A DNA stretch of 21,539 nucleotides from IMG/VR virus record IMGVR_UViG_3300044675_001084, positions 1 to 21,539 of that record; one strand, 5' to 3'. The notes beneath the pieces were generated by a model, which was not told the DNA's origin, made no database searches, and worked only from the letters and a program-made list of their open reading frames with translations. Numbering within the stretch: position 1 is the first letter of the stretch; each line of letters begins with the position of its first letter. The stretch comes from a virus. Positions 1 to 969 of the stretch are shown here, in pieces. The position numbers and the translations under genes are program-made.

Positions 1-69
1 AAGAAAAAGGTATATATATAGATATGTGCATATGTGCCCATGTATTCTGGCCGCGACTGAAAACAGGCC

Positions 70-258
70 GCCAAACACGCCAATCCGCCAAGAAACACTT
101 TTGTGTGCGACGCGCACCAGGCGCGCATCCTTGGCGTTCTGGGTCATGACATAACTAGTCGGCTAGCAACTTGCTATGTCATAGCCAAGACCGCCAAGAA
201 ATGACCGCGCAAGCTGGCGCGCCCGTCGGCATGGTGTTTTGTCGCCAAGATCGCCAAG
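70..258 (+). repeat. iteron-like GCCAAG repeats in three clusters
   Basis: GCCAA-type hexamers begin at 70, 79 and 87, then 184 and 193, then 244 and 253. Spacing within clusters is 9 nt, except one of 8. The last two clusters are 60 nt apart and each is followed by ATGACCGCGC, so a composite unit occurs twice (184-210 and 244-277). One inverted copy, CTTGGC, is at 130-135. Regular spacing near one helical turn suggests a DNA-binding protein array, but the binding factor is unknown. Confidence 0.5.
146..182. repeat. nested inverted repeat, operator-like
   Basis: ATGACATA at 146-153 and TATGTCAT at 175-182 form an 8-bp perfect inverted repeat. Inside it, CTAG at 155-158 and CTAG at 163-166 form a second small dyad. 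It could be an operator or part of a hairpin. No regulator gene is present in the window to link to it. Confidence 0.45.
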
Positions 259-350
259 CCAGGGCAAATGACCGCGCGCAATCCTGCACGCGCACGCGGT
301 TGCGGGTGTCTGGCAGCGTGGGTAGGGGGGGGTGGGGGCCGACGGGCGCG
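218..350. repeat. 13-bp perfect inverted repeat with 107-nt loop
   Basis: CGCGCCCGTCGGC at 218-230 is exactly complementary to GCCGACGGGCGCG at 338-350. The loop holds the second GCCAAG pair, the second ATGACCGCGC copy, a smaller dyad (ACCGCG 271-276 with CGCGGT 295-300) and a G-run. Thirteen uninterrupted GC-rich pairs are unlikely by chance over this distance. The arms could form a long stem-loop in single-stranded DNA or RNA, or serve as paired protein-binding sites. Confidence 0.6.
320..338 (+). other. G-run with quadruplex potential
   Basis: On the + strand the tract reads GGG, TA, eight G, T, five G. This gives at least four runs of three G with loops of one or two bases, meeting the usual G-quadruplex motif. 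It sits just inside the right arm of the 218-350 inverted repeat. Whether it folds in DNA or RNA is unknown. Confidence 0.45.
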
Positions 351-361
351 TGACTGTCACG
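349..361. promoter_or_regulatory. 13-nt palindrome (CGTGACTGTCACG)
   Basis: This is a perfect 6+1+6 dyad directly abutting the right arm of the long inverted repeat, about 100 nt before the terS start. The size and symmetry fit a dimeric repressor or activator site. An AT-rich stretch with a TATAAC-like hexamer near 396-401 follows, but no convincing -35 partner was found, so no promoter is called. Confidence 0.35.
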
Positions 362-462
362 GGCAGGGTTCGCAAACAATTTTTATTTTTTTTGATATAA
401 CCCCACGCACACAATTTTTTGCATATTGCCCACGCACCCCGCAACGGTTACTGTCGCGCACC

Positions 463-969
463 ATGAGTTTCTACTCTCTGCCCTTTACACCTGAACGGCC
501 CGAGGCAACCGAGGCGCGGTTGGAAGCCATATACGCAGCCGCGCGCTATGGCCTGAAGGGCGACAGCCTAGCGATGGCCGCTGGCCTGACACCCAGCCAG
601 TACCGACGCCTTCAGGAGTTTGACCCGCTGGTCGAGATGGCCGAGATGAAGGGCCGCTCCGAGGGTGAGTTCAACGCCGCCAAGACGCTGTACGACGCCG
701 CCGCCGCGGGCGACGCCAAGGCCGCGCTTGACATCCTCAAGCATCAGCATGGTTGGGTAGCCAAGCAGCAGATCGACGTAAACATCGACCAGCAGATATC
801 TGTGATTGCGGCTTTGGAAAAAGCTGAATTACGTGTTATAGAAGGTCTCTATACGGAAGTGGAGGACGCACCAACGTCCTCCACGTTCCTGACCAACCAA
901 CAAGAGGACATTGTTGATGGCTACCAAACTGATAACGCAAGAGAGGCTGAAAAGTCTACTAGCGTATGA
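463..969 (+). CDS. terS: terminase small subunit (TerS)
   Basis: Predicted DNA-recognition subunit of the packaging motor: it would bind the packaging site and present DNA to TerL. The 168-residue length is close to P22 gp3 (162). Residues 15-52 look like a small helix-turn-helix region (ARYGLKGDSLAMAAGL then a Tyr/Arg-rich helix). A central acidic helical part (about 55-95) is followed by an IDVNIDQQISVIAALEKAE segment (104-122) that I associate with phage small terminases. The frame is open back to 268, but the upstream part is low-complexity, so ATG 463 was chosen; its ribosome site is weak. The last ~18 codons overlap the HNH gene, and the 3' end is AT-richer than the body, so the C-terminal tail may have been replaced when the endonuclease inserted. 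Family assignment is by sequence character plus position before terL. Confidence 0.75.
   Translation: MSFYSLPFTPERPEATEARLEAIYAAARYGLKGDSLAMAAGLTPSQYRRLQEFDPLVEMAEMKGRSEGEFNAAKTLYDAAAAGDAKAALDILKHQHGWVAKQQIDVNIDQQISVIAALEKAELRVIEGLYTEVEDAPTSSTFLTNQQEDIVDGYQTDNAREAEKSTSV

Follow-up and report, generated by a model that had tools for sequence, protein, structure and literature searches.

A putative iteron-type replication origin before terS in a freshwater phage and its podovirus relatives, with an iteron word that varies with residues of a predicted primase-helicase wing

In phage-inducible chromosomal islands (PICIs) and Staphylococcus aureus pathogenicity islands (SaPIs), an initiator helicase, sometimes fused to a primase, reads iterons by its C-terminal domain, and the iteron sequences differ among elements (PMC6092414; PMC7581432). 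The SaPI Rep protein and its relative Cch2 use this C-terminal domain to bind their sites (PMC7581432), and the alpha protein of P4 is a primase-helicase fusion whose C-terminal winged helix binds origin repeats (PMC4234260). Here we describe a region that may work along similar lines in a 21,539-base virus fragment from IMG/VR (IMGVR_UViG_3300044675_001084; hereafter the window, meaning the whole stretch analysed), at its left end, before a putative terS gene. Judging from sequence, we propose with a probability of roughly 0.8 that positions 1-392 make up the right-hand half of an iteron-type replication origin, in which 9-nt iterons (CGCCAAG) would be bound by the C-terminal winged helix of a phage primase-helicase whose wing would read the iteron word, followed downstream by a promoter for a probably leaderless terS.

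The likeness to PICIs and SaPIs lies in the combination of an iteron origin with an initiator helicase/primase carrying a C-terminal recognition domain, here judged by covariation and a predicted fold. However, the PICI origin is located directly 3' of the initiator gene, whereas the present array lies several kb off, before terS; the present phage has its own capsid and packaging genes; and we found no wing-residue-to-base code described for PICIs. The P4 alpha primase is of the Toprim type (PMC4234260), whereas a weak Pfam match points to a RepB-like primase of the archaeo-eukaryotic (AEP) type here. The only solved structure matched by sequence is the NrS-1 phage primase-polymerase (PDB 6k9c/6k9e; over the helicase, E 2.5e-6), which shares the DUF5906-type helicase region and has an N-terminal primase, but the paper on it describes two copies of an 8-nt recognition sequence and no iteron origin (PMC7102993). 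ORF904 of pRN1 is also a primase-helicase with a C-terminal winged helix, but the putative origin of pRN1 is a stem-loop that contains no iterons (PMC4234260). The Rep protein and iterons of geminiviruses provide an analogy only, Rep of circular single-stranded DNA viruses being an unrelated protein. Relative to PICI/SaPI and P4 origins, two things are new: a location before terS, in a group of podoviruses, and the proposed wing-to-word code; no published wing-iteron code for phages was found in the open-access literature, which does not by itself prove its absence.

Iteron arrays before terS

The window derives from a freshwater phage placed among the P22-like podoviruses, and its terL, portal, coat and tail genes are all on the + strand. 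Many relatives occur in IMG/VR, and among GenBank phages only MW202483 and OR003940, both distant, are related. The terS-terL order is kept in relatives, and about 100 non-redundant ones share the same layout of iterons, constant element and promoter before terS (pattern counts below are over 106 non-redundant relatives). Distant initiator genes also occur on two contigs of metagenome-assembled genomes (MAGs), one of them labelled Rhodoferax, which hints at a host within the Burkholderiales.

The initial annotation had described a dense group of repeats and palindromes between positions 70 and 437, explained by no gene, and each of the repeats it listed is present. Seven GCCAA words stand on the + strand (at 70, 79, 87, 184, 193, 244 and 253, neighbours being 8-9 nt apart) and one more on the - strand (131). 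The composite unit occurs twice, with GCCAAGACCGCCAAG at 184-198 and 244-258 (93%) and a fully repeated AAATGACCGCGC (100%), and a nested dyad, a perfect 13-bp inverted repeat (218-230 and 338-350), a 9-nt direct repeat (402-410 and 429-437), a G tract (about 323-338) and the palindrome CGTGACTGTCACG (349-361) are likewise present. No conserved gene covers the region, the open reading frame (ORF) at 268-969 being an upstream extension of terS, whose conserved start is at 463. Against 400 dinucleotide shuffles of 70-437, GCCAAG on both strands (6 copies; shuffle mean 0.36) and the longest perfect inverted repeat (13 bp; shuffle mean 8.25) were each matched by 0/400, and the longest direct repeat (12 nt) by 5/400. 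The iterons, the G tract with GGGCCG and the palindrome recur in relatives. The compensatory changes looked for in the 13-bp arms did not appear, as the arms are not conserved, and the inverted repeat was set aside because only one of the 95 relatives scored carries one at that position.

Computation across the relatives reveals the wider array. In the 950 nt before terS of 86 loci, 6-mers repeat at a lag of 9 nt 442 times, versus 24 in shuffled sequence. The iterons of relatives keep this period of about 9 nt and lie in both orientations around an AT-richer tract, each lineage having its own word at comparable positions and orientations: CCAAG in the clade of the window, and CCCAG, CCCAC, CCTAG, CCTAC or TGACGTC in others. 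Left of about -450 from terS the word sites occupy both strands, right of it almost only the + strand, and the highest AT content over 67 loci falls at about -500 to -450. Relatives reaching further left run on into sites of inverted orientation. In relatives, two sets of iterons flank an AT-rich region; of these parts, the window has only the right-hand set and the margin of the AT tract. In strong-word genomes, most copies of the word genome-wide fall within this region (e.g., 14/15 in G001 and 8/8 in G014), and in 11/23 genomes no other 7-mer in the entire record is as densely repeated as that of this array.

Other repeats were seen in the same region. A 12-nt tandem array, CGGATCGGCACG, is expanded between the iterons of L009 at about -310 to -245 from terS, and L269 and L224 carry other GATCG-rich arrays. 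A second repeat set, GTCATGA (with GACCACGCA), recurs 14-19 nt apart at about -340 to -255 from terS in several CCTAG-type genomes (L078, L066, L063 and similar ones), and TAACACA repeats, GTGTTAACACACTAACACA, occupy the right half of the region in many TGACGTC-type genomes (L059, L107, L137). In L109 and L013, a small ORF (about 80 aa, ending in ...RIWR(I/V)E) precedes the G tract in place of much of the array. The distant relative L158 (MW202483) has up to 23 sites of the word ATGTAAAC and a different wing, MCFAPELSTKRH; its sites lie roughly 1 kb ahead of the terS homologue, where small leftward genes are annotated.

Covariation of the iteron word with the predicted primase-helicase wing

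In long relatives, a primase-helicase gene is located left of the array, past a group of small leftward genes, with about 4-10 kb between the array and the C-terminus of this putative initiator, which is inverted in window-like clades. The protein appears to combine a RepB-like primase (a weak N-terminal match to RepB_primase, 21.8 bits, under the cut-off of 24.3), a DUF5906/VapE-like helicase (PF19263 above the cut-off in the initiators of three relatives) and a predicted winged-helix C-terminus. Close initiators with different words differ in one C-terminal hairpin (GRIGSTELPTKKH versus GRINSKEYQNKKH), and because this hairpin was first spotted by eye, a column-blind test was made over 66 loci and 308 variable initiator columns after regressing out overall identity. 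The top three columns for word similarity were, in order, hairpin residues 4, 6 and 10, the best column reaching r 0.39 versus a maximum of 0.123 when origins were permuted among loci (200 runs). For TerS and TerL as word readers, the best columns gave r 0.13, within the permutation range. When 72 ORF families from the sequenced genomes were compared, the primase-helicase again came first, by a smaller margin with 25 genomes (0.46 versus 0.37), and its top two columns, two residues apart, are hairpin residues 4 and 6. A ranking of families by same-word minus different-word identity was discarded: it favoured late-region proteins with linked ancestry and was replaced by the identity-removed column tests.

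Pairs of close relatives point the same way. When initiators are at least 88% identical, word similarity is 0.35 with the same residues at hairpin positions 4 and 6 (p4 and p6) and 0.08 with different ones, and L319 and L308, 97.6% identical outside the hairpin and with different wings, have a word similarity of 0.05. In the motif GR-x-[GNAH]-S-[TKVSAR]-x-x-x-[TN]-K, with key positions p4, p6 and p10, CCCAG is found mostly where p4 is H or A and p6 is V or I, and CCCAC where H or K is combined with R; G with T, S or V goes with CCTAG or CCTAA, G with K goes with CCTAC (2/3), A with A goes with CCCAT, and the N-S-K wing goes with TGACGTC in most cases. The information shared by p6 with the last base (1.18 bits) and by p4 with the middle base (0.77 bits) was in each case reached by 0/5000 permutations. 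Among 28 further loci, outside the set from which the rules were built, p4=G went with CCTA in 10/10, p4=N with ACGTC in 3/3 and p6=S with A in 6/6. The distant Rhodoferax MAG locus, whose wing is KSR, has 12 TGTCCACA-type sites ending in CCAC, 3 kb from the gene. AlphaFold models of 54 aligned C-termini (loci only) contain helices and a wing, with a block predicted local distance difference test score (pLDDT) of 88-94 there, and would place p4, p6 and p10 (model residues 133, 135 and 139) within the wing, flanked by strands 127-132 and 141-145 and preceded by a conserved helix at 114-124.

We infer from these results that the initiator, encoded on the far side of the leftward small-gene block, would assemble on two iteron arrays flanking the AT-richer tract, in analogy to PICI/SaPI initiators, melt this tract, load itself as helicase and prime synthesis, with a constant DNA element and the sigma-70 promoter of terS placed downstream of the origin. 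The recognition helix is nearly constant, and the alternating wing residues p4, p6 and p10 may read the 3' half of the word; wing and iterons would therefore change together, and related phages would differ in origin type. At about even odds, this large aquatic podovirus group has typed origins, in which a few wing residues set the iteron word and between which lineages have switched repeatedly, perhaps avoiding cross-replication or parasitism by co-infecting relatives or satellites.

The origins of uncultured phages can seldom be located from sequence. Natural diversity in this group would locate the origin, identify the initiator and suggest which residues read which bases, as the DNA-reading key of a primase-helicase can be inferred where the word seems to vary with two or three initiator residues. 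This gives bench predictions as well as a means of finding origins in phages from metagenomes and of typing them, and, if the types are real, makes it testable why close relatives keep altering their origin specificity.

Weighing an origin against other roles

Several results weigh against the proposed origin and its code. The window contig starts within the origin and contains neither the initiator gene nor the left half of the array. Words are weak in G007/L246-like clades, and automatic extraction of position weight matrices in weak-word clades returned GC-rich background. Four N-class loci have no ACGTC. Among the 28 further loci, p6=V went with G in only 2/5, and p4=A mostly failed (CCAAA seen, CCCAA predicted); p4=A is therefore permissive and the code partial. 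Foldseek gave no significant match for the C-terminal model, and the role of the wing is for this reason a prediction. As to the clade of the window, L240 joins a CCAAG origin to the first 489 aligned initiator residues, and L289, which is 95% identical to L240 along a colinear stretch of 4,945 nt, has the rest of the initiator, with the wing ASVEHQT. An A-S-V wing alongside CCAAG and some CCCAG sites fits the permissive A class.

Alternatively, the iterons could serve as operators, early and late transcription being controlled by the primase-helicase or by a regulator that shares its specificity, while replication starts elsewhere. The array does lie beside a strong promoter, with a leftward block of genes on one side and the rightward late block on the other, and GC skew, uninformative as an origin marker here, gives it no origin mark, minima and maxima not coinciding with the array. 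However, the covarying protein is a primase-helicase and not of a regulator type, and an array of up to about 20 sites, spread over some 600 nt around an AT-rich centre, exceeds a simple operator, making this explanation unlikely. It is highly improbable that the region is a pac or cos packaging site read by TerS, with the origin elsewhere: the columns of TerS do not follow the iterons, whereas the primase-helicase does, and the constant element lies 71 to 316 nt from terS. Such a site would suit the position directly before terS, the near invariance of the constant element (336-392) while TerS is conserved, and the varied places relative to terS at which long contigs end, which are compatible with permuted, headful-packaged DNA; the constant element alone could have a packaging role.

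Covariation could also reflect shared ancestry, word and wing differing by lineage without any contact between them, and it counts against our reading that the loci are related and the permutation tests ignore the tree. This is nevertheless extremely improbable given that initiators which are almost identical but differ in the wing also differ in word (L319 and L308), that same-wing pairs below 75% identity are still closer in word (0.154 versus 0.073), and that the signal is concentrated in two alternating residues out of 308 variable columns. Among a packaging site, a replication origin and a late-operon switch, between which the initial annotation had left the choice, an origin is thus best supported, by the iterons, the both-strand array and the covariation with the primase-helicase; a promoter for the late operon is present as well, and packaging is retained only as a possibility for the constant element.

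Constant element, promoter and neighbouring genes

Downstream of the iterons lies a constant element of 50-60 bp, found once per locus, comprising GGGCCG, GTGACTGTCACGG and CGCAAACAATTTTT (Table 1). A core like CAAACAATTTTT is present in 86/106 relatives, and conservation of the element is independent of the iteron word. The element may be a priming, host-factor or packaging site. A structured RNA was considered here and rejected: in an alignment of 273-462 with relatives, 0/8 predicted pairs had compensatory changes, and no Rfam match reached the gathering score.

Table 1. Features at the left end of the window
Feature	Position	Strand	Remarks
AT-rich tract GGTATATATATAGATATGTGCATATGTGCCCATGTAT	8..45		candidate melting site between the right array and the left array (beyond the contig end)
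Iteron cluster A	68..93	+	CGCCAAA, CGCCAAT, CGCCAAG, 8-9 nt apart; relatives show the 9-nt lag excess
Inverted iteron CTTGGCG (CGCCAAG on the - strand)	130..136	-	kept by clade members at about -332 from terS
Imperfect dyad, arms 130-159 and 169-198 (80%)	130..198		brackets facing iterons
Iteron pair B GCCAAGACCGCCAAG	183..199	+	
AAATGACCGCGC, copy 1 of a clade-level repeat that follows an iteron pair	199..210	+	also in L023 and L024
Iteron pair C CGCCAAGATCGCCAAG	243..259	+	
AAATGACCGCGC, copy 2	266..277	+	
G tract, GGGCCG at its end	323..341	+	pattern in 90/106 non-redundant relatives; GGGCCG invariant in 23 aligned
Constant element, including GGGCCG	336..392		GCGCGTGACTGTCACGGGCAGGGTTCGCAAACAATTTTTATTTTTTT at 346..392; near invariant in 23 diverse relatives
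Sigma-70-type promoter, TTGCCC - 17 nt - TACTGT	426..454	+	8 nt between the end of the -10 and the terS ATG
Putative terminase small subunit (terS)	463..969	+	first late-block gene; no family match of its own

The end of the -10 hexamer lies 6-8 nt from the terS ATG in 101/106 relatives, versus 8.3 in shuffles, with a spacing of 17 in 93, and a Shine-Dalgarno-like word precedes terS in only two of the 106. Because the -10 ends so close to the ATG in the window, the terS mRNA probably starts at or beside it and would be leaderless. Within the ~45 nt that precede terS, otherwise close genomes of the group exchange at least two different cores of this promoter, TTGCGT...TATTGT and TTGCAA...TATAGT, with position and spacing unchanged.

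The gene is named terS because it sits before terL, and in OR003940 a small subunit is annotated at the corresponding place. L003, L004 and L006, with terS starting at 394, 134 and 258 of those loci, are the same phage as the window or near-identical to it; like the left end of the window, these contigs stop in or near the origin region, as if assembly broke at a variable origin. Between terS and terL of the window, an HNH endonuclease gene (911-1426, + strand; phrog_99, E 2.6e-65) overlaps the end of terS and is possibly a homing insertion, and in MW202483 a homing endonuclease stands directly before the terS homologue instead.
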